A stretch of DNA of 64,000 nucleotides from Actinoplanes sichuanensis (GTDB lineage Bacteria > Actinomycetota > Actinomycetes > Mycobacteriales > Micromonosporaceae): the NCBI RefSeq assembly GCF_033097365.1, contig NZ_AP028461.1:5580001-5644000 (forward strand), in the 5' to 3' direction. Of the stretch, positions 4,433 to 55,952 are shown one piece after another. The notes under the pieces are model-generated. The model had not been told where the DNA came from and searched no databases. It saw nothing but the letters and a program-made list of their open reading frames with translations. Every line of letters begins with the position of its first letter. The first letter of the stretch is position 1. The position numbers were made by a program, and so were the translations under genes.

Positions 4433-5246
4433 GGAAGGCCAGCAGATCGTCGCCGAGCTGCTGCTTGTGCGTGTCGGTGATGCCGTGCGGAGCGCCCGGG
4501 TAGACGATCAGCCGGGCGTCCTTGACCAGCTCGGCCGACGCCTTGCCACCCACCTCGAACGGCACCACCTGGTCGTCGTCGCCGTGGATGACGAGCGTCG
4601 GCACGTCGAACTTCGCCAGGTCGTCGCGGAAGTCGGTGGCTGAGAACGCGGCGATGCTCTCGTAGGCGTTGCGGTGCCCGGCGGCCATCGACTGCAGCCA
4701 GAACGCCTGCCGGATGCCCTCGGACACGTCCGCGCCGGGCCGGTTGTTGCCGAAGAACGGGCCGTCGGCGAGGTTCCGGTACAGCTGGGAACGGTCGGCG
4801 GCGGACCCGGCCCGGATGCCGTCGAACACCTCGATCGGCACCCCGCCGGGGTTGTCGTCCTGACGGACCATCAACGGTGGCACCGCCGAGACCAGGACCG
4901 CCTGCGCGACCCGGGCGCTCCCGTGCCGCCCGATGTAGCGGGTGATCTCGCCACCACCGGTGGAGAAACCGACCAGGGTCACCTCGGTCAGGTCCAGGTG
5001 GTCGATCACCGCGGCGAGATCGTCGGCGTACGTGTCCATCTCGTTGCCGTGCCACGTCTGGCTGGACCGGCCGTGTCCGCGACGGTCGTGGGCGATCACC
5101 CGGTAGCCGTTGTCGGCCAGGAACAGCTGCTGCGCCTCCCAGCTGTCCGAGTTCAGCGGCCAGCCGTGGCTGAGCACGACCGGACGGCCGGCACCCCAGT
5201 CCTTGTAGAAGATGTGCGTACCGTCGGCGGTGGTCACGAAACTCAT
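4413..5246 (-). CDS. alpha/beta hydrolase, non-haem chloroperoxidase/esterase type
   Basis: This 277-residue protein matches the cofactor-free chloroperoxidase/aryl esterase group. The oxyanion region is [12 protein letters not shown], the nucleophile elbow GFSTGG (Ser near 98), the acid lies in [11 protein letters not shown] and the base in APHGITDTH. The start at ATG 5246 gives the usual [19 protein letters not shown] terminus; a longer open frame upstream belongs to the neighbouring gene's antisense. The start overlaps the upstream hydrolase stop by 4 bp (ATGA), so the two are translationally coupled. Confidence 0.88.
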
Positions 5247-6031
5247 CGGGCGGCCCTCTCGATCAGGTCGGCGACTGCTTTGGGCTGAGAGACGAGAGCG
5301 ACATGCGAAGAGCGGACCTCGACGGTACGGGCACCCGCGCGCTGAGCCATGAAACGCTGCACGGCCGCCGGGATCAGCCGGTCGTCCCGGGCGACCAGGA
5401 AGTACGACGGAATCGTCTTCCACGCCGGCTCCCCGGACGGGGTCTGCAGGGTGCTGGTGTCGCCGGGCCGCTGAGTGGCCCACAGCAGATCGGCGTCGGC
5501 GGGTGACAGGTCACCGGCGAACACCCGGTGGAAGAACTCCCGCTTGACGTAGCCGTCGAGTCCGCCGGGATGCGGGCGGAAGTCCAGGGCGTCCAGGGTC
5601 AGCTCGGTGCCCGGGAAGTGGTTCTGCAGGTGGGCCAGGTCCTCACCGGATTCCGGCGCGAACGCGGCCACGTAGACCAGCGCCTTGACGTTCGGGTTGC
5701 CGGTCGCCGCGTTGGTGATGACGAAACCGCCGTACGAGTGCCCGACCAGCACGATCGGTCCACTGATGGTGGCCAGCACACTGGCCAGGTAGGCGCTGTC
5801 GGAGACCACGCCGCGCAGCGGGTTCGCCGGAGCGAGGACCGGGTAGCCGGCGCGGATCAGTCGCTTGACGACACCGGACCAGCCGGCGGAGTCGGCGAAC
5901 GCGCCGTGCACGAGCACGATGGTGGGTTTGACCTGGTGGCCGCCCGCGGCGGCCGGGGCGCCGGTGGCGGCGACGGCCACGGCAGCCGCCGCGGTGCCGG
6001 CCAGAACGGTACGACGGGAAACGGAACTCAT
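5243..6031 (-). CDS. secreted alpha/beta hydrolase with Tat signal
   Basis: The 262-residue protein opens with [20 protein letters not shown], a twin-arginine signal ending near residue 28. The mature part has [12 protein letters not shown], nucleophile elbow VGHSYGG (Ser near 100), acid ARDDRLIP and base SSHVALVS, as in esterase EstC-like hydrolases. It is probably exported folded. It is the first gene of a two-gene unit with the cytoplasmic hydrolase downstream. Substrate unknown. Confidence 0.88.
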
Positions 6032-6100
6032 ACCGTTGAGCCAACCGTCCCGCGGCCACCCGGACCATGCGGAACGACCGGCAGAAACCGGTCCGCCGCC

Positions 6101-7372
6101 TCAAGCCGCCTGGTCCAGCAGCCACCTGTTCATCCGCTGCCGGGTGGCGACACGGGCACCCTCGGGTTCCTCGACGCGCAGTCGTTCCGCGGCGAACAGG
6201 CGGATCAGGTCGTGGAAGCGGTACCTGTCGGCGCCCTCGGCCTGCAGCAGGCCCAGCTCGACCAGTTCGTCGAGACGGTCCTCGGCGTCGTGCGGATCGG
6301 AACCGGTCAGGACCGCGACGATCGGAGCGGCGAAGTCGGGGCCGGGCACGTGAGCGAGCCGCCGGAACAGGGCCCGCCCCTCACCGGAGAGCTGGGCGTG
6401 CGACAGCGCGAACGCGGCCGCCACACCGGTGTCGCCGGTGCTCAGGACGGCCAGGCGGCGGTCCGTGTCGGCGAGCCGGTCCAGCAGGTTGCCGACGGTC
6501 CAGGCGGTACGGGTGGCCAGTCGCGTGCCGGCGATCCGCAGCGCCAGCGGCAGATGGCCGCAGAGCCGGGCCACCTCGCCGACCTGCCCGGCCACGGACG
6601 GGTCACCGGCCTGCCCGGCGATCGAGCGGAGCAGGCCCGCCGACTCGTCCGGGGCCAGCGGGTCCAGGCCGATCCGCAGCACCCCCTCCAGACCACCGAG
6701 CATGCGGCGGCTGGTGATCAGGACGGTGCTGCCGCCGGGGCCGGGTAACAGCGGGCGCAGCTGCGCCTCGTCGGCGGCGTTGTCGAGGATCAGCAGGCAG
6801 CGTCGTCCGCCGAGCTCGGCGCGGATCTGGCTGCACCGCTCGTCGGGGTCGTCGGCGATCCGGCGCGGGCTGATCTCCAGGGCGCGTAGCAGCTGGCGGG
6901 CCGCCTCGCCCGGTTCGAGGGGTTCCGGGTCGACGCCGCGAAGATCGAGATACAGCGACCCGTCGGGATGTCCGGGCATCCCCGCCTTCGCCGCGTGCAC
7001 CACCAACGCGGTCTTCCCGACGCCCGGCTGACCGTGCACCACGACAATCCTATCGGCGCTTCTCGATATCTTCCCGATTTCTGCGACGCGGCCGATGAAG
7101 TCGTCGACCGGCCGCGGCGGCTCACACAGGCGCGGCCGGACCGTCTTCATCCGCTGCGCGCGCGCCGACCCGGCGAGCAGATCGTGCTCCTTTTCGGTCA
7201 CTCCCAGAGCAGAGGCGAGAGCAGCGAGGGTACGGGGCTGAGGCGCGCGACTGTGCCCGCGTTCCATGTCGCTGATCGCCCGAACACTGACCCCGGACGC
7301 CTCGGCCAGTTGCTCCATGGTCAACCCGGCCCCGCGACGCAACGAACGCAACCGCCCCCCGAACCCCGTCAC
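6101..7372 (-). CDS. XRE-type HTH / NB-ARC regulator
   Basis: Residues 1-65 form a Cro/CI helix-turn-helix (TMEQLAEASGVSVRAISDME). An NB-ARC ATPase follows, with Walker A HGQPGVGKTALV (about 112-124), Walker B CLLILDNA, sensor LITSRR and GHLPLALRIAG. The protein ends at 423 residues with a winged-helix-like FHDLIRLFAAERLR segment and lacks the TPR array usual in AfsR/SARP-like or STAND regulators. It probably works as an ATP-dependent switch in transcription. It is coupled by a 4-bp overlap to the epimerase gene upstream. Confidence 0.85.
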   Translation of the reverse strand: MTGFGGRLRSLRRGAGLTMEQLAEASGVSVRAISDMERGHSRAPQPRTLAALASALGVTEKEHDLLAGSARAQRMKTVRPRLCEPPRPVDDFIGRVAEIGKISRSADRIVVVHGQPGVGKTALVVHAAKAGMPGHPDGSLYLDLRGVDPEPLEPGEAARQLLRALEISPRRIADDPDERCSQIRAELGGRRCLLILDNAADEAQLRPLLPGPGGSTVLITSRRMLGGLEGVLRIGLDPLAPDESAGLLRSIAGQAGDPSVAGQVGEVARLCGHLPLALRIAGTRLATRTAWTVGNLLDRLADTDRRLAVLSTGDTGVAAAFALSHAQLSGEGRALFRRLAHVPGPDFAAPIVAVLTGSDPHDAEDRLDELVELGLLQAEGADRYRFHDLIRLFAAERLRVEEPEGARVATRQRMNRWLLDQAA

Positions 7373-8325
7373 GTATCCAATCTAGATCCCGTCCGGACCC
7401 GTGCGTCCTCGGCCGGATAGTCGAACCAGCCCTCGGGGTCCTCCGGACGGTTGCGCAGCAGCCAGTCGATCTCCTCGGTGACGGTGGCCGCGAAGTCACC
7501 GACCGGCCGGTAGCCGAGGTCGGCGGCCGCGGTCATGTCCAGCACGATCGGCGGGATCCGGTGCCACGGGTGCCATCCGGTCTGGTCGTCGATCTCCGTC
7601 CAGGTGTGTCCGGCCCGGGCGGCGATCACCCGGGAGATGGTGCGGCCGTCCGGGGCATCCGGGTCGGCGGCGTTCAGGATCCGGCGGCCCGGCTTGTCCG
7701 CCACGCACGCGACCAGCGCGGCGATGTTCGCGGCGGCCGACGTGTGGTCGACACCCCGGCCACCGTCGGCGAGCAGCACGAACGGGCGGCGGTCGAGGGC
7801 GCGCTTCAGGAACCACCAGGTACGTGCCGGGTTCGAACCGGCGCCGTGCACCTTCGACGGGCGCAGCACGGTCACCGGGGCGCCACTGTCCAGCAGCAAC
7901 CGTTCGGCGGCGACCTTGTTCGGCCCGTAGCCCTCGGCCGAGTCGTAGTCCATGTCGCCGGGCGGCAGAGTCGCCTGCTCCTCCGTGATCGGACCGTCGA
8001 AACGCGGCGGCTCCGGCGAGTTCACATGGTTGCCGGCGTCGTCCACGTAGACGGCCTTACTGGAGATCATCACCGCCGAACCGGCGTCGCGCATCAACGG
8101 CAGGACCTGCGCGGCGTGCGCGGCGGTGTAGCAGGCACAGTCGACGACAAGGTCGTACTGGCCGGTGGGCAGGGTGTCGTGATCGGCCAGGAGCAGGGTG
8201 GCGCCGGGCGGGACCGGACGCGGACCACGGCCGGTGGCGGTGACCCGCCAGCCCGCTTCGATCAGGTGGCGGCTGACCGCCCCGCCGATCATCCCGGTGC
8301 CGCCGATGACTAGAGCATGTCGCAT
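7369..8325 (-). CDS. NAD-dependent epimerase/dehydratase family protein
   Basis: A Rossmann fold begins at residue 4 with VIGGTGMIGGAV (GxxGxxG). The short-chain SDR-extended features follow, including MISSKAVYVD and a YGPNK motif holding the catalytic Tyr and Lys (about 139-143). Length 318 is normal for atypical SDRs. The substrate is likely a nucleotide sugar or similar metabolite but cannot be named. It is transcribed first in a unit with the HTH/NB-ARC gene and is divergent from the isochorismatase-like gene with only 17 bp between starts. Confidence 0.82.
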   Translation of the reverse strand: MRHALVIGGTGMIGGAVSRHLIEAGWRVTATGRGPRPVPPGATLLLADHDTLPTGQYDLVVDCACYTAAHAAQVLPLMRDAGSAVMISSKAVYVDDAGNHVNSPEPPRFDGPITEEQATLPPGDMDYDSAEGYGPNKVAAERLLLDSGAPVTVLRPSKVHGAGSNPARTWWFLKRALDRRPFVLLADGGRGVDHTSAAANIAALVACVADKPGRRILNAADPDAPDGRTISRVIAARAGHTWTEIDDQTGWHPWHRIPPIVLDMTAAADLGYRPVGDFAATVTEEIDWLLRNRPEDPEGWFDYPAEDARVRTGSRLDT

Positions 8326-50416: not shown

Positions 50417-50444
50417 AGGCCGGCGCCGCGACCGGCGCCGGCCT
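50417..50444. terminator. bidirectional hairpin terminator
   Basis: A perfect 12-bp stem, aggccggcgccg (50417-50428) with cggcgccggcct (50433-50444), closes a CGAC loop between the convergent secreted-protein gene and modC. Confidence 0.8.
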
Positions 50445-51490
50445 CAGCCGTCTCCGGGGTAGGCGCGGGTCTCGGCGGCCTTGACCGCCACCCACAGCTC
50501 ACGGCCCGGTTCGAGATGCAGGTGGGCGGCCGCGGCCGGGGTGATGTCGGCGGACACGCTGATCGGACCGTCCAGCCGGACCCGCAGGTTGTCCCCGTGC
50601 CGCTGCACGTCGGCCAGGACCGCCGGCCAGGTGTTGCGCGGGCTGCCGTCCGGGCGGCTCGGGTGCAACGCCACGGCCGCCGGCGGGAAGGCCACAAAGG
50701 CATCCCCGTCGACCCGGTCGGTACTGGTCAGCGCGAAGTCGTCGGTGATCGTGACGGTGTGGCCGTCGCCGCGGCCCCGGTAGAGGTTGAGGCCGACGAG
50801 CCGCGCCACGTAGTCGGTCCGCGGCCGGGCGGTGATCGTCGCCGCGTCACCCTCCTGCACGACCCGGCCCTGTTCGACGATGACGAGCCGGTCGGCGAGC
50901 ACCAGGGCGTCGAGTGGATCGTGGGTGACCAGCAGAGTCGCGCCGGGATGGGCGGACAGGTGCCGCCGCAGCTCACCGCGGGTCTCCAGACGGGTCCGGG
51001 CGTCCAGGGCGGCGAGCGGCTCGTCGAGCAGCAGCAGGACCGGGTCGACGGCCAACGCCCGGGCCAGCGCGACCCGCTGCGCCTGCCCGCCGGACAGGTG
51101 CCGGGGCTTGCGGCGGCCGTGCTCGGCGAGTCCGACGCGGTCGAGCCAGCGGTCGGCCACGGCGTACGCCTGCTTGCGATCCTGACCCTGCCGTCGTGGG
51201 CCGAAGGCCACGTTGTCGCGGGCGGTGAGGTGCGGAAACAGCAGGTAGTCCTGGAAGACGACGCCGATCGGCCGTCGTTCCGGCGGGTCGTCGCGGATGT
51301 CGCGGCCGTCGAGGGTGAGGTGGCCGTCGTCGAGCGGCGCGAGCCCGGCGAGGGCACGCAGCGCGGTGGTCTTCCCGGCGCCGTTCGGCCCGAGCAACGC
51401 CACCGTCTCGCCGGGAGCGATCCGCAGCTCGATGTCCAGGAGGAACGTGCCCCGGCGGACCACCAGGTGGGCGTCCAGCAGGGCACTCAC
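50444..51490 (-). CDS. modC: molybdate ABC transporter ATP-binding protein ModC
   Basis: 348 residues. Walker A GPNGAGKTTALRAL (about 34-47), Q loop VFQDYLLFPHL, signature HLSGGQAQRVALARAL, Walker B VLLLLDEPLAALD and switch His LLVTHD give an ABC ATPase. A C-terminal TOBE/Mop domain (residues about 270-340) senses oxyanion. It energises uptake of molybdate with ModA and ModB. The start overlaps the modB stop by 4 bp. Confidence 0.9.
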   Translation of the reverse strand: MSALLDAHLVVRRGTFLLDIELRIAPGETVALLGPNGAGKTTALRALAGLAPLDDGHLTLDGRDIRDDPPERRPIGVVFQDYLLFPHLTARDNVAFGPRRQGQDRKQAYAVADRWLDRVGLAEHGRRKPRHLSGGQAQRVALARALAVDPVLLLLDEPLAALDARTRLETRGELRRHLSAHPGATLLVTHDPLDALVLADRLVIVEQGRVVQEGDAATITARPRTDYVARLVGLNLYRGRGDGHTVTITDDFALTSTDRVDGDAFVAFPPAAVALHPSRPDGSPRNTWPAVLADVQRHGDNLRVRLDGPISVSADITPAAAAHLHLEPGRELWVAVKAAETRAYPGDG

Positions 51491-52275
51491 GGCGCGGTCA
51501 GCCAGCGGTCGCGCAGCCCGGCCAGGATGGCGACCGAGACGATCAGCAGGATCAGGCTGAGCACGACCGCTCCCTCCAGGTCACCGCTCTCCATCGTCTG
51601 GTAGACCGCGAGCGGCATCGTCTGGGTGATGCCCGGATAGTTTCCCGCGAACGTGATCGTCGCCCCGAACTCCCCCAACGCCCGCGCCCAGCACAGCACC
51701 GCACCGGCCGCGATCCCGGGCGCCACCAGCGGCAACGTCACATGGGTGAAGGTCGTCCAGCGGGTCGACCCGAGGGTGGCGGCGGCCTCCTCGTATCTGC
51801 TGTCGGCGCCGCGCAGCGCCCCCTCGACCGCGATCACCAGGAACGGCAGCGCCACGAACGACTCGGCGATCACCACCCCGGTCGTGGTGAACGGCAGCGT
51901 GATCCCGAACGTCGAGTCCAGCCACTGCCCGACCAGGCCGCGCCGGCCCAGCGCCAGCAGCAGCGCGATGCCCCCGACCACGGGCGGCAGCACCAGCGGC
52001 ACGGTGATCAGCGCCCGGACCAGACGCCGCCCCGGAAACGTCACCCGGGCCAGCATCCACGCCAACGGCACCCCCAACACCAGACACAGCACCGTCGCCA
52101 TCGTCGAGGTGAGCAGCGACAACTTCAGCGCCTCGACCACCTGCGGCTCGGCCAGCCGAGCCGGCAGGGTCGACCACGGCGTGCGCGCCAGCAACCCCAC
52201 CAACGGCAGGATCAGGAACAACAGACCCAAAACCGCAGGCACCAGCAGGGGTACGGGTACACGTGCCGTCTTCAT
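51487..52275 (-). CDS. modB: molybdate ABC transporter permease ModB
   Basis: 262 residues with five to six helices and the permease EAA loop (EEAAATLGSTRWTTFTHVTLPLVAPGIAAGAVLCWARALGEFG), typical of ModB/CysTW-type subunits. ATG 52275 starts 5 bp after the modA stop; the longer open frame upstream is antisense-frame read-through of modA and is not coding. It forms the channel for molybdate. Confidence 0.9.
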   Translation of the reverse strand: MKTARVPVPLLVPAVLGLLFLILPLVGLLARTPWSTLPARLAEPQVVEALKLSLLTSTMATVLCLVLGVPLAWMLARVTFPGRRLVRALITVPLVLPPVVGGIALLLALGRRGLVGQWLDSTFGITLPFTTTGVVIAESFVALPFLVIAVEGALRGADSRYEEAAATLGSTRWTTFTHVTLPLVAPGIAAGAVLCWARALGEFGATITFAGNYPGITQTMPLAVYQTMESGDLEGAVVLSLILLIVSVAILAGLRDRWLTAP

Positions 52276-52280
52276 GGTGA

Positions 52281-53057
52281 TCAGGGTGCCTGGAACCCGG
52301 CCTCGGTGAGGACCCGGCCGGCTTCGGCGGACAGCACGTACCGGATGAACGCCTGCGCCCCGGCCGCGTTCTTCGCGTCCTTCAGAGCCACGATCGGGTA
52401 GTCGTTGATCGCCTTGGCCGACTCGGGGAACTCGACCGCGTCGACGTCGGCCGCGGCCGCCCTGGCATCGGTCCGGTAGACCAGTGCCGCGTCCACCTCG
52501 CCCAGTTTCACCTTGGACAGCGCCGCTTTCACGTCCTGCTCCAACGTCACCGGGGTGACCTTGACGCCGGCCGCCTCGATCGCCGTCTTCGCGGCCGCAC
52601 CGCACGGCACGGCCTCGGCGCAGAGCGCGACCTTGAGGTCCGGCCTGGTGAGGTCGGCCGGCCCGGCGATCCCTTTCGGGTTGCCCTTGGCGACCGCGAT
52701 GACCAGCTGGTTCTTCACGAATGTGGTGGGCGTGCCCTCGCTGTTGCCGGCGTCGACGACGACCTTCAGGTTCTTCGGGGAGGCCGAGGCGAACACGTCC
52801 GCCGGGGCGCCCTCGTTGATCTGGGTGGCCAGGGCCGAACTGCCGGCGAAGTTGAACACCACGGTGGTGCCCGGGTGGGCGGTCTCGAACTGTTTGCCGA
52901 TGGTGGTGAACGACTCGGTCAGCGACGCCGCCGCGAAGACGTTCACCGAGCCGGTCACCGCGCTGCCGGAGCTCGTCGTGCCCGGCTCGTCGGTGCCGCT
53001 GTCGCCGCATCCGGCGAGCGCGATCAGGGCCGCCAGGCCGATGGCCACGATCCTCAA
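52281..53057 (-). CDS. modA: molybdate-binding lipoprotein ModA
   Basis: 258 residues. A lipoprotein signal ends LIALAGCGDSG with the lipobox Cys near 17. The mature part is a periplasmic-binding fold with VFAAASLTESF, NFAGSSALATQINEGAPADVFASAS and LVIAVAKGNP, the usual ModA anion-binding strands (Ser in AASL and GSS). It captures molybdate or tungstate outside the membrane. The start overlaps the regulator stop by 4 bp. Confidence 0.92.
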   Translation of the reverse strand: MRIVAIGLAALIALAGCGDSGTDEPGTTSSGSAVTGSVNVFAAASLTESFTTIGKQFETAHPGTTVVFNFAGSSALATQINEGAPADVFASASPKNLKVVVDAGNSEGTPTTFVKNQLVIAVAKGNPKGIAGPADLTRPDLKVALCAEAVPCGAAAKTAIEAAGVKVTPVTLEQDVKAALSKVKLGEVDAALVYRTDARAAAADVDAVEFPESAKAINDYPIVALKDAKNAAGAQAFIRYVLSAEAGRVLTEAGFQAP

Positions 53058-53476
53058 CTGGGCCTCCCCTTGTGGGCCACCGTCGGGTGCGAACGCTCCA
53101 CCACGACAGTGGTCGATTTGATCACTGCCACGGCGACCGAGCCGACCTGCAGGTCCAGCTCGTCGACGGCTTCCCGGCTCATCAGCGACACCAGCCGGAA
53201 CGGCCCGGCCTGAATGTCCACCTGAGCCATGACGGTGTCCTTGACGACCGCGGTGACGATCCCCCGGAGCCGGTTGCGGGCCGACGACTCGTCGGCCCGA
53301 TCGTCCGGATCGTTGCCCTTGGCCCGGACGAACCCGGCCAGCTCCACCCCGTCGATCACCCGATGACCGGCCTCGTCACGTCCCGCGGGCAGCCGACCGG
53401 CGTCGATCCACCGGCGCACGGTATCCGCGCTGACCCCGAGCAGCTCTGCCGCCTCACCGATCCGAAACTCCGTCAC
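53054..53476 (-). CDS. HTH-TOBE (Mop) molybdate-responsive regulator
   Basis: 140 residues: an excisionase/MerR-like HTH (FRIGEAAELLGVSADTVRRWIDAGRLPAGRDEAGHRVIDG, residues 4-43) and one Mop/TOBE domain (SARNRLRGIVTAVVKDTVMAQVDIQAGPFRLVSLMSREAVDELDL). This architecture binds oxyanion and is common at the head of actinobacterial mod operons. It probably senses molybdate and represses the operon it heads. GTG 53476 is set by TAGAGT 7 nt upstream. Confidence 0.88.
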   Translation of the reverse strand: MTEFRIGEAAELLGVSADTVRRWIDAGRLPAGRDEAGHRVIDGVELAGFVRAKGNDPDDRADESSARNRLRGIVTAVVKDTVMAQVDIQAGPFRLVSLMSREAVDELDLQVGSVAVAVIKSTTVVVERSHPTVAHKGRPS

Positions 53477-53483
53477 GGACGGC

Positions 53484-53489
53484 ACTCTA
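53484..53489 (-). promoter_or_regulatory. -10 element, leaderless start of mod operon
   Basis: On the minus strand TAGAGT ends 7 nt before GTG 53476 with no ribosome site, so the mod operon mRNA probably begins at the regulator's start codon. Confidence 0.5.
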
Positions 53490-53576
53490 TCGGTTTCGCA
53501 CTTGCAACCATAGGCGGCCTTGATCACTGGCAGATTCGGCCCTCACCGCATCTCTATCATCGCACCTGCGAGGTGG

Positions 53577-55052
53577 CTATCGAGCCGGGGCAGGCTGCGG
53601 GAGGGCCGCCACCAGGCGTTCGATCTGGGATCTGATCTCCGGAACGGCGGTGGACTCCCAGGAGCGGCCGCGCCGAAGCGGACCGACCAACCACAGGCCG
53701 GTGCGGATCCGGCCGTCCGGGTCGGACTCCAGGCCCAGGCCGTGCGGACCGGTTTCGACCAGGCCCGCGGCGAGCAGGTCGGAGAGCAGCGGTCCGGCCG
53801 AGGACGGCAGCGGGGCCGGGCCGGTGCAGGAGATCACGGCGGCGTAGCGGCGCGGTGCCTCGCCCTCGATGTGAACCAGGAGGCCGCCGCGCGGGTCCGG
53901 TTCGATCGAGAGCAGGCGACCGGAGCGGATCCGCAGGGTGCCCTGTTCGCGGAGGCGGGTGATCCGGGCGGCGATCGGCGGGGCCATCCGGTGCCGGTGC
54001 ACCTCCCAGTACCGCTGGACGTGCCGCAGGAACCGCTCCTGAGCGTCCGGATTCAGGCCGTTCCACAACCGGTCGGCGTGGTGCCTGACGTACTCGACGA
54101 CCGCGGTCCAATCGGCGCCTTCGGCGACGGCGGCCCGGACGCGGCGCAACAGTGGGCCGAGCTCGGCTGCCTCCGGCAGCGCGAGATCGACGGCGGGCGC
54201 GGGTCGCTGCGGGTGGGTCCGCGGCAGCAGTCCGCGGCGAGAAAGAGCCTCCAGCTGTACGCCGCGCACCTGCTCGTTGATCGTCAGCGCCACGTCGATC
54301 GCGGTCAGCCCGGTGCCGAGCAGCAGCACCGACGCCGGACGGCCCGTACCCGGCGTGGCGTCGGACGTCGCCTCGGAGACGGCATCGGCGACGATCCCGG
54401 CCGAGACAGCGCCGGTGCCGCTCGGGACGGCGGCGGCCCCGGCCGAAGCGGCGGCCAGGGCCCGGGTCAGGGCGCCGGGGATCCATGGGTCGGCTACGAA
54501 GGCGGGGCTTCGGCGGGCGGTTGCCGAGACCGCGGACGGCGGGCTGGGCGGCGGGTTGCCGAGAGCGAGGATCACCTGGTCGGCGTGGATCCGGCAACCG
54601 TTGGCGTCGGTGATGGTGTAACCGGAGTGCTCTGGCCGTACCTCCACTGCGGTTGATCGGTGATGGACGAGCCGGGAGCCGGCCGCGGACGCCGCGGCAG
54701 CGAGATGGTCGGAGAGGTAGTCGCCGTACCAGGCACGCGGGAGGAAGGTCGCCGCGTCGGCCGGAAGGCCGCGGGTCCGGCACCAGCGCAGCAGGTGCTT
54801 GGGGTCGGCCGGATCGGCGGACATCGTGGCGACGCGGGAGTTGAGGAGGTGCCAGGGTTCGGCGGCGCCGTAGGCGACACCCCGGCCGGGACGCTCCTCA
54901 GGTGAAATCAGAACTGTCCGCCATGCGGGATTTCGCGTGATCGCCGCCGCGGCGAGAGCCCCACTGAACCCACCGCCGATGATCGCGACGGTATTCCGAT
55001 GCCGTCCGGTTGCTGCGGCCGTGACCGTATTGCGGGCAACGACACTGGTCAT
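53577..55052 (-). CDS. FAD/NAD(P)-binding protein
   Basis: 491 residues. An N-terminal FAD motif VAIIGGGFSGALAAAAI (about 20-36) is followed by GVAYGAAEPWHLLNSRVATMSADP, QVILALGNPPP, an inserted Ala/Ser-rich stretch, a second dinucleotide motif SVLLLGTGLTAIDVAL and GLWLVGPLRRGRSWESTAVPEIR near the end. This is the family often annotated as FAD/NAD(P)-binding or FAD-dependent urate hydroxylase-like; the reaction is unknown. ATG 55052 overlaps the stop of a polycysteine leader ORF, which suggests control by cysteine or sulfur supply. Confidence 0.85.
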   Translation of the reverse strand: MTSVVARNTVTAAATGRHRNTVAIIGGGFSGALAAAAITRNPAWRTVLISPEERPGRGVAYGAAEPWHLLNSRVATMSADPADPKHLLRWCRTRGLPADAATFLPRAWYGDYLSDHLAAAASAAGSRLVHHRSTAVEVRPEHSGYTITDANGCRIHADQVILALGNPPPSPPSAVSATARRSPAFVADPWIPGALTRALAAASAGAAAVPSGTGAVSAGIVADAVSEATSDATPGTGRPASVLLLGTGLTAIDVALTINEQVRGVQLEALSRRGLLPRTHPQRPAPAVDLALPEAAELGPLLRRVRAAVAEGADWTAVVEYVRHHADRLWNGLNPDAQERFLRHVQRYWEVHRHRMAPPIAARITRLREQGTLRIRSGRLLSIEPDPRGGLLVHIEGEAPRRYAAVISCTGPAPLPSSAGPLLSDLLAAGLVETGPHGLGLESDPDGRIRTGLWLVGPLRRGRSWESTAVPEIRSQIERLVAALPQPAPAR

Positions 55053-55099
55053 CGCGCTGCCACCTCGATCGCCGGCCGCTCGGTACAGCAACAGTGCAT
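55049..55099 (-). CDS. polycysteine leader peptide (uORF)
   Basis: AGGAGG stands 5 nt before ATG 55099. The frame encodes MHCCCTERPAIEVAAR and stops in an ATGA overlap with the FAD/NAD(P) gene start. Three Cys codons in a row directly after the start are typical of actinobacterial cysteine-responsive uORFs, in which slow translation at low Cys alters expression of the downstream gene. The main gene has no separate ribosome site of its own. Confidence 0.75.
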   Translation of the reverse strand: MHCCCTERPAIEVAAR

Positions 55100-55152
55100 T
55101 GGTTCCTCCTGCGGTTCGCTCCCGCCCCAAGCAAACCACATAACCCGTCGGC

Positions 55153-55158
55153 TTTATA
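55153..55158 (-). promoter_or_regulatory. -10 element for leader/FAD operon
   Basis: On the minus strand TATAAA lies about 55 nt upstream of the leader ATG in an AT-rich stretch. No good -35 box at usual spacing is seen; TTAACA lies too far upstream at 22 nt. Confidence 0.4.
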
Positions 55159-55310
55159 GGCTATCTGGAGCGAATTCAGTTGTTAACATTTACGGCCTTC
55201 CCTGTCCAGTCCAACGTGGATATGGTGATCACCGCCTTTGGCACTACGGGGGGTAACCGAAGCGCAACAAACTGATACCCCCTTCCCTCATTCCGGAAGG
55301 ACATTTCGTC

Positions 55311-55952
55311 TTGTCTGAGACTCCGTTGTGGCTGCAGGGCCGGTCGGCCGTCATCGAAGCCGCTGACCCGTCGGAATTCCGGCACGGCACGCCCGACTAC
55401 CACCTGTCACACACGGTCATGCCCGGGCAGCGCACCACCGACCACGCGCCCGGTTCCCTGGAGGCGATCGTCGAGTCGATCGTGCAGGTCTTCGAGATGG
55501 AGGTCTCGCACAAGCACGACCCGGCGACCTGGGTCTCGATGGTCTCCGAGAAGTTCCGCACCAACATCAACGGTGGCGGCTGGGCCTCCGCGCAGGACAT
55601 CGCCGACCAGGGCAGCTACAACGTGCTCATCGGTGACAGCCCGTTCTACCGGGTCGGCAAGGAGTCGTTCGACAGCCAGCACGACATCTTCCACGGGGCG
55701 TTCCCGGGCGGCTTCTACTGGGAGGTCCTCCAGGTTCTCAGCCCGCCGCCGGTGGTCGCCTTCAAGTGGCGGCACTGGGGCGCCTTCGAAGGCGAGTACC
55801 ACGGCTTCCAGCCGAACGGTAAGACCATCGAGATGTTCGGCATGAGCGTCGCCAAGGTCGACGACGACCTGAAACTCCTCGAGGTCGAGCACTACTACGA
55901 CCCGAACGCGTTCCTCGGCTCGCTCACCGGCGGCTGCCCGGTCGCGCACTGA
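55311..55952 (+). CDS. SnoaL-like polyketide-cyclase-fold protein
   Basis: 213 residues. An N-terminal tail precedes an NTF2/SnoaL-type alpha+beta barrel: LEAIVESIVQVFEMEVSHKHDPATWVSMV, FYWEVLQVLSPPPVVAFKWRHWGAFEGEYHGFQPNGKTIEMFGMSVAKVDD and LEVEHYYDPNAFLGSL. Such proteins are cyclases, isomerases or ligand binders; the reaction is unknown. TTG 55311 follows GGAAGGA. It is divergent from the FAD/NAD(P) operon with a shared 211-bp regulatory region. Confidence 0.75.
   Translation: MSETPLWLQGRSAVIEAADPSEFRHGTPDYHLSHTVMPGQRTTDHAPGSLEAIVESIVQVFEMEVSHKHDPATWVSMVSEKFRTNINGGGWASAQDIADQGSYNVLIGDSPFYRVGKESFDSQHDIFHGAFPGGFYWEVLQVLSPPPVVAFKWRHWGAFEGEYHGFQPNGKTIEMFGMSVAKVDDDLKLLEVEHYYDPNAFLGSLTGGCPVAH

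Follow-up and report, generated by a model that had tools for sequence, protein, structure and literature searches.

Polycysteine attenuators of mycobacteria are reportedly leaderless short open reading frames (ORFs) that rely on a run of Cys codons, as far as a partial view of their description goes. Leader peptides with Cys runs were also described in 2005 for cys operons in Mycobacterium and in P. acnes and for cbs in B. longum (PMC1262725, in its available part). In Rhodobacterales the uORFC-8-2 precedes cysS; its Cys residues are mostly those of codons 14-15, and it has two stems and a terminator with a U-run (PMC8632094, likewise in part). For mycobacterial small ORFs coupled to the next gene through an RTGA overlap, the available part of Shell et al. 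2015 (PMC4633059) states that the coupling is under greater selection than the peptide. The accessible part of PMC11133741 held nothing bearing on such leaders, and in the open-licence part of the literature (titles and beginnings of abstracts) neither the leader, nor the link between flavoprotein and cysteine dioxygenase (CDO), nor the operator described herein was found named. The account that we favour for the Actinoplanes locus, with some reserve, is that of a mini-cistron led by its own Shine-Dalgarno (SD) sequence and coupled by termination-reinitiation to the gene for a cysteine-linked flavoprotein, probably under the control of a CDO-type operator.

The leader ORF, MHCCCTERPAIEVAAR, is located at 55049..55099 on the minus strand of the window (herein the whole stretch of 64,000 nucleotides analysed), and consists of 16 codons from the ATG at 55099-55097 to the stop TGA at 55051-55049. 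The SD sequence AGGAGG (55105..55110, minus) is placed 5 nt upstream of this ATG, and the stop codon overlaps the start of the FAD gene as ATGA (55049..55052, minus). The FAD gene itself (53577..55052, minus) encodes an FAD/NAD(P)-binding protein of 491 amino acids that matches PF13454 NAD_binding_9 (E 1e-36), and gave no phmmer match among PDB chains at E 0.01. The original prediction of an MHCCC ORF with this length, spacing and overlap was confirmed in the sequence; the strand, which it had not given, is minus for the leader, AGGAGG, the overlap and the FAD gene. Its statement that the FAD gene has no ribosome site was slightly too strong, because GAGG is present inside the leader 10 nt before the FAD ATG; in most other leader-bearing orthologues no comparable site was seen by eye. 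Among the leader-bearing loci the FAD start codon is ATG or GTG, mostly without SD (by eye), and comparable sites precede it as GAGG in L082 and GAGGGAG in L083. Initiation at the FAD gene might to some extent proceed on its own from the weak GAGG, a possibility that counts against the favoured explanation. The leader frame stays open upstream to an ATG at 55141 within the operator flank (55049-55141, minus; 30 codons, no SD), and a 14-codon upstream extension of this frame, equal in length, recurs in several orthologues.

The Cys run alone is not beyond chance, because ATG-NNN-(TGY)3 occurs 10 times in the host genome (12.1 Mb, one contig) against 11 times for the reversed control. Three of these ten MxCCC ORFs (the window leader, L114 and L115) end with an RTGA that opens a frame of at least 200 codons, and among the three only the window leader carries an SD at the usual spacing, none being present in L115. 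L114 (1500 +) is a 32-codon MxCCC ORF with GGGGAGG 11 nt before the ATG, and its GTGA opens a frame of 210 codons. The idea of further polycysteine leaders across the genome was rejected, since TGY runs (131 against 156 in the reversed control) and TGY runs near a stop (34 against 30) both showed no clear excess. Of the 34 near-stop loci 30 were inspected; L310 was the best-looking among them, but it lacks an SD, and the ORF that follows after 36 nt we take to be a NUDIX hydrolase gene, so that L310 was put down to chance.

Homologues of the flavoprotein were detected in 65 of 67 Actinoplanes genomes, and the nine best orthologues among the matches listed all belong to Actinoplanes. We compared the start regions of one best match per each of the 65 genomes (L001, L082-L110 and L121-L155), together with that of L002. 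In 13 of the 65 genomes the best match has in front of it a leader of exactly 16 codons with an SD and the RTGA overlap; a GGAG-containing SD was recognized by eye in every case, the RTGA overlap is present in all 13, and the 51-nt leader alignment contains no gap. Judged from this alignment, the leader ORF as such is beyond chance, since 13 Actinoplanes species share its length, frame and overlap without any indel. The leader expected before FAD orthologues was thus found in 13 of 65 genomes, but its CCC in just three of these 13 (L001, L082 and L083), the others carrying CC (two) or a single Cys (eight). What is kept, as far as the compared sequences tell, is the frame, the length, the overlap and a short core, and not the polycysteine run. 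In a tree built from 22 proteins out of the 65, including those of all 13 leader loci, L096, L104 and seven leaderless outgroup members, the leader loci fall within one clade of 15 members, in which the remaining two, L096 and L104, form a leaderless, nested and long-branched pair. Both of these carry an SD directly before the FAD ATG, and the appearance of such a site where the leader seems to have been lost counts for the coupling. Under midpoint rooting, the history of the leader fits one gain and one loss. Five leaderless loci (L091, L097, L101, L103 and L105) contain a 12-codon ORF, [MV]VC..RPAGE, extending from the operator flank to just before the FAD ATG; this may be a by-product, because other leaderless relatives have an early stop or none there.

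Upstream of the leader, an element resembling the CDO-type operator was identified at 55134..55164 (minus), with the best PWM matches in the 64 kb in both orientations, and its core, CCTATAAAGCCGACGGG (55144-55160, minus), is two bases off the palindrome CCTAT-N7-ATAGG. The PWM was trained on CDO promoters only (20 distinct sites, 5 loci without a site being left out), and its top scores in the window, 19.2, 18.6 and 6.6, are all located at 55131-55170, the best elsewhere being 3.7. The window site stays below all of the training sites, which score 41-59, and is therefore a weak, diverged copy. At the other leader promoters the score ranges from 12.9 (L088) to 33.9 (L090), and at the leaderless L096 and L104 it is 9.8 and 13.5, respectively. 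A loose palindrome is present within 240 nt in 48 of the 87 FAD loci scanned (17 of them strict, a few species being counted twice), and was not found in seven leader loci, L001 and L082-L087. The apparent degeneration of the window operator and the lack of a palindrome at these seven loci count against the favoured explanation. By eye, we take TAGCCT (55158..55163, minus) to be a candidate -10 that overlaps the operator-like element, and TTAACA (55181..55186, minus), at a 17-nt spacer, to be a candidate -35; the consensus promoter scanner reported no promoter at these hexamers. The putative -10 is separated by 58 nt from the leader ATG, and this spacing, together with AGGAGG 5 nt upstream, would argue against a leaderless leader.

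The same palindrome marks other genes. A CDO match was obtained in 66 of the 67 Actinoplanes genomes, and the slightly relaxed palindrome is present upstream of CDO in 25 of the 30 best CDO loci, with no further occurrence in the 102,447 nt of the 30 loci. CCTAT-N7-ATAGG was found six times in the own genome, against none for the reversed pattern, and at least once in 63 of the 67 genomes, in many of which the reversed controls are non-zero. The genes at the six palindromes (L195-L200) are those for CDO, GCS2, a winged-helix regulator, AhpC/TSA, an SBP_bac_5 lipoprotein and COX1; the palindrome at COX1, with a PWM score of -0.1, is perhaps a chance occurrence, and the winged-helix regulator, an orphan (L200:1557-2102), has a divergent FMN reductase beside it. 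In at least 24 Actinoplanes genomes the FAD match is preceded on its own strand by a winged-helix match at no more than 140 nt, and in at least 20 at no more than 40 nt. Together with the window element, the palindrome genes other than COX1 are candidates for a cysteine/thiol regulon, of which the regulator is perhaps the winged-helix protein.

An association with CDO is also found among relatives of the flavoprotein. Among the 110 loci searched, 10 carry CDO either fused to the PF13454 relative (five loci) or at most 1.2 kb away from it, and none of these comes from Actinoplanes; this count, made by single-query tblastn, is a lower bound, with flank lengths varying among the 79 loci that hold all ten. 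The single-ORF CDO-FAD fusions recognized by Pfam (L043, L052, L064, L073 at 5176-7377 + and L074) originate from metagenome-assembled Planctomycetes, Myxococcota and another lineage, and suggest that the flavoprotein acts with CDO. A count with an iterated HMM was set aside, because through the fusion ORFs the model came to recognize the FAD protein as well, so that every one of the 79 loci matched. The flavoprotein does look cysteine- or sulfur-linked, as originally proposed, on the grounds of the CDO-type promoter motif, the CDO adjacency and fusion and the genes sharing the palindrome, and not of the Cys run. For the divergent SnoaL-like gene (55311..55952, plus; a marginal SnoaL match of 28.7 bits against the cut-off 28.4), to which a part in the same sulfur response had tentatively been ascribed, the sole indication is its position opposite the flavoprotein gene, across the intergenic region that both share.

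On the downstream side, all on the minus strand, the FAD gene is followed after 49 nt by the gene for an HTH-TOBE (molbindin-like) regulator (53054..53527), and then by modA for the molybdate-binding protein (52281..53057; TIGR01256 139.6 bits, cut-off 62.5), the modB permease gene (51487..52200, these being the limits of the match within an open frame that is longer; both TIGR02141 and TIGR01581 exceed their cut-offs) and a gene for a modC-like ABC ATPase with a TOBE domain (50444..51490; modC model below cut-off). In each of the 13 leader species, mod genes follow on the same strand at a downstream distance of up to about 3 kb, the context of L082, L087 and L093 being taken from the same-species records L003, L006 and L008, and none was found in the leader-losing contexts L201 and L202 or in five leaderless contexts (L156-L160). 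L201 and L202 represent the same two Actinoplanes species that are without leader and without mod genes, and their FAD protein is long-branched. Control of the molybdate genes by the leader is not claimed, because, in L006 and L008 at least, the FAD and mod genes are separated by long opposite-strand ORFs with a coding-like composition, and because the association stands on a single gain and a single loss.

The ORF, its SD, the overlap, their conservation, the likeness to the operator and the association with CDO in relatives are read from the sequences themselves; for the favoured mini-cistron we infer, in addition, binding at the operator, translation of the leader and reinitiation, in the following way. 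Transcription would start at the promoter overlapped by the diverged operator of the CCTAT-N7-ATAGG family, and ribosomes would load at the leader SD and translate the 16 codons. Reinitiation at the RTGA overlap would then serve the FAD gene, which has little or no SD of its own and of which the start is predicted to be mostly paired in structure (unpaired probability 0.11-0.49 in 12 of the 13 loci; 0.77 in L093). The probable CDO-type operator would place the flavoprotein in a cysteine-oxidation/thiol gene set. The early Cys codons may in addition confer cysteine sensitivity, in which case cysteine shortage would silence the gene, because the SD would be occluded by the very ribosome that stalls at codons 3-5, and translation would not proceed to the overlap. 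Counted by codon position, the parsimony changes (27/34/25) gave permutation P values of 0.64, 0.20 and 0.76, no frame being significant, and this apparent absence of a coding signature counts against the favoured explanation.

The last of these steps can be raised to the main function of the leader, i.e. a gate for cysteine sufficiency, at which scarce charged tRNA-Cys stalls the ribosome over the SD and leaves the FAD gene silent, while ample cysteine lets ribosomes pass and the flavoprotein be made, with the sign opposite to that of the mycobacterial attenuators. We consider this possible, on the unlikely side. Such a gate is in line with the coupling architecture, with Cys5 in all 13 leaders, extended to CC or CCC in five, and with the link to CDO, since silencing on shortage suits a cysteine-oxidation gene; the modelled stall, without opening of the FAD start in the window, is also as expected. 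The peptides are MHCCCTERP.. (three), MPTCCTKRP.. (two), MPSVCTKRP (two), and one each of MPEHCTKRP, MPEHCTERP, MPDHCTERP, MPSVCTRRP, VPSLCTKPS and MSSVCTRRP, and a single Cys codon in eight of the 13 makes a weak sensor. Against the gate also stand the equal conservation of Thr6, with Arg8 and Pro9 nearly as well kept, and the operator-bearing CDO genes, before which no such leader was seen by eye in the 75 nt examined. The orthologue comparison ruled out the polycysteine run as a conserved sensor: the run is, on the present sequences, a local oddity, and presumably not the main sensor. The more specific proposal, that within the genus the sensor of the gate began with one Cys codon and was extended to three, working in the opposite sense to the known cysteine attenuators, is fairly doubtful.

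The conserved core may alternatively act independently of cysteine supply, the sequence Cys-Thr-[Glu/Lys/Arg]-Arg-Pro being a nascent-chain or codon-specific pause, or an RNA or DNA site. Cys5 and Thr6 are kept in all 13 leaders and Arg8 and Pro9 in 12, with codons 2-4 and 10-16 varying, and the codons themselves are nearly constant, TGT for Cys5 and ACC for Thr6 each in 12 of 13. Since Cys codons in 12 ORFs of the window are TGC 32 times against TGT 5 times, the rare TGT at Cys5 hints at selection at the nucleotide or codon level beyond plain coupling. On the other side, the RNA structure is weak (consensus fold -5.1 kcal/mol, covariation term -0.05), although four of the 11 pairs show two-sided change, and no Rfam family matched the leader region. 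We regard this reading as unlikely.

A mycobacterial-type polycysteine attenuator, to which the original prediction had pointed, would require that a stall at the Cys codons frees a sequestered FAD start, so that starvation induces the gene. The Cys run within the clade, and the window minimum-energy fold, in which Cys codons 3-5 pair with FAD codons 13-15, are as this model would have it, but the same pairing was not found in the minimum-energy folds of L082 and L083. The duplex energy between leader codons 2-9 and FAD nucleotides 4-44, compared with 300 mononucleotide shuffles, is low in the three CCC species (11, 13 and 4 of 300 shuffles as low for L001, L082 and L083, respectively); among the other ten loci just L102 (18 of 300) comes near, the remaining nine giving 53 to 264 of 300. 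When the stall was modelled by holding leader codons 1-9 and the 6 nt before them single-stranded, the unpaired probability of the FAD start rose clearly in L102 alone (0.27 to 0.47), the gain not exceeding 0.01 in the other 12 of the 13, with a fall in several. In the window the values are 0.21 for the free and 0.20 for the stalled state, so that no unmasking of the FAD start by stalling at the Cys codons is predicted there. In addition, the run is not conserved and lies close to the start of an SD-led ORF, 8 of the 13 leaders have a single Cys, neither an intrinsic terminator (in 54950-55350, between leader and gene) nor an Rfam element was found, and a cysteine-oxidation gene should not be induced by starvation. 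The attenuator model is therefore not supported for this locus, and we hold it very improbable.

Hardly credible, finally, is a reading in which the leader frame goes unused and the segment is left over from an N-terminal extension that was read in the FAD frame (LYxAAx[D/E]...). Codons 10-16 do change most at the third position of that frame (13/17/25), but over the leader as a whole this signal lacks significance; stops interrupt the FAD frame in L083, L095 and L102, and no such extension is present in the outgroups.

The mini-cistron that we favour offers a natural series of leaders with one, two or three Cys codons, or with no leader, before one gene, and thereby allows a direct test of what Cys codons do in such coupled leaders. 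The analysis also connects the PF13454 flavoproteins, an uncharacterised family, with CDO by way of a promoter motif that both have and of fusions occurring in nature. For Actinoplanes, a set of cysteine/thiol genes with a candidate regulator is proposed.

In comparison with the mycobacterial polycysteine attenuators, as far as their partial description allows, the Actinoplanes leader likewise carries adjacent Cys codons in a short ORF that precedes a gene linked to cysteine, but it is SD-led and its run, at codons 3-5, is not conserved; the mycobacterial attenuators precede biosynthesis genes, whereas the Actinoplanes gene is tied to cysteine oxidation and no unmasking is predicted in the window. 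With uORFC-8-2 (PMC8632094, in its available part) it shares tandem Cys codons in an upstream ORF, in contrast to which uORFC-8-2 is alphaproteobacterial, with stems and a terminator and with Cys at codons 14-15. The leaders described in the available part of PMC1262725 are similar in being actinobacterial, in carrying Cys codons and in that a terminator was not found, but have the run near the stop codon and precede biosynthetic genes. The mycobacterial RTGA-coupled small ORFs (PMC4633059, also in part) resemble the Actinoplanes leader in that the TGA of the small ORF overlaps the RTG of the next gene; unlike those ORFs, which stand on leaderless transcripts, the Actinoplanes leader has an SD, a probable 5′ UTR and a kept core of five residues.
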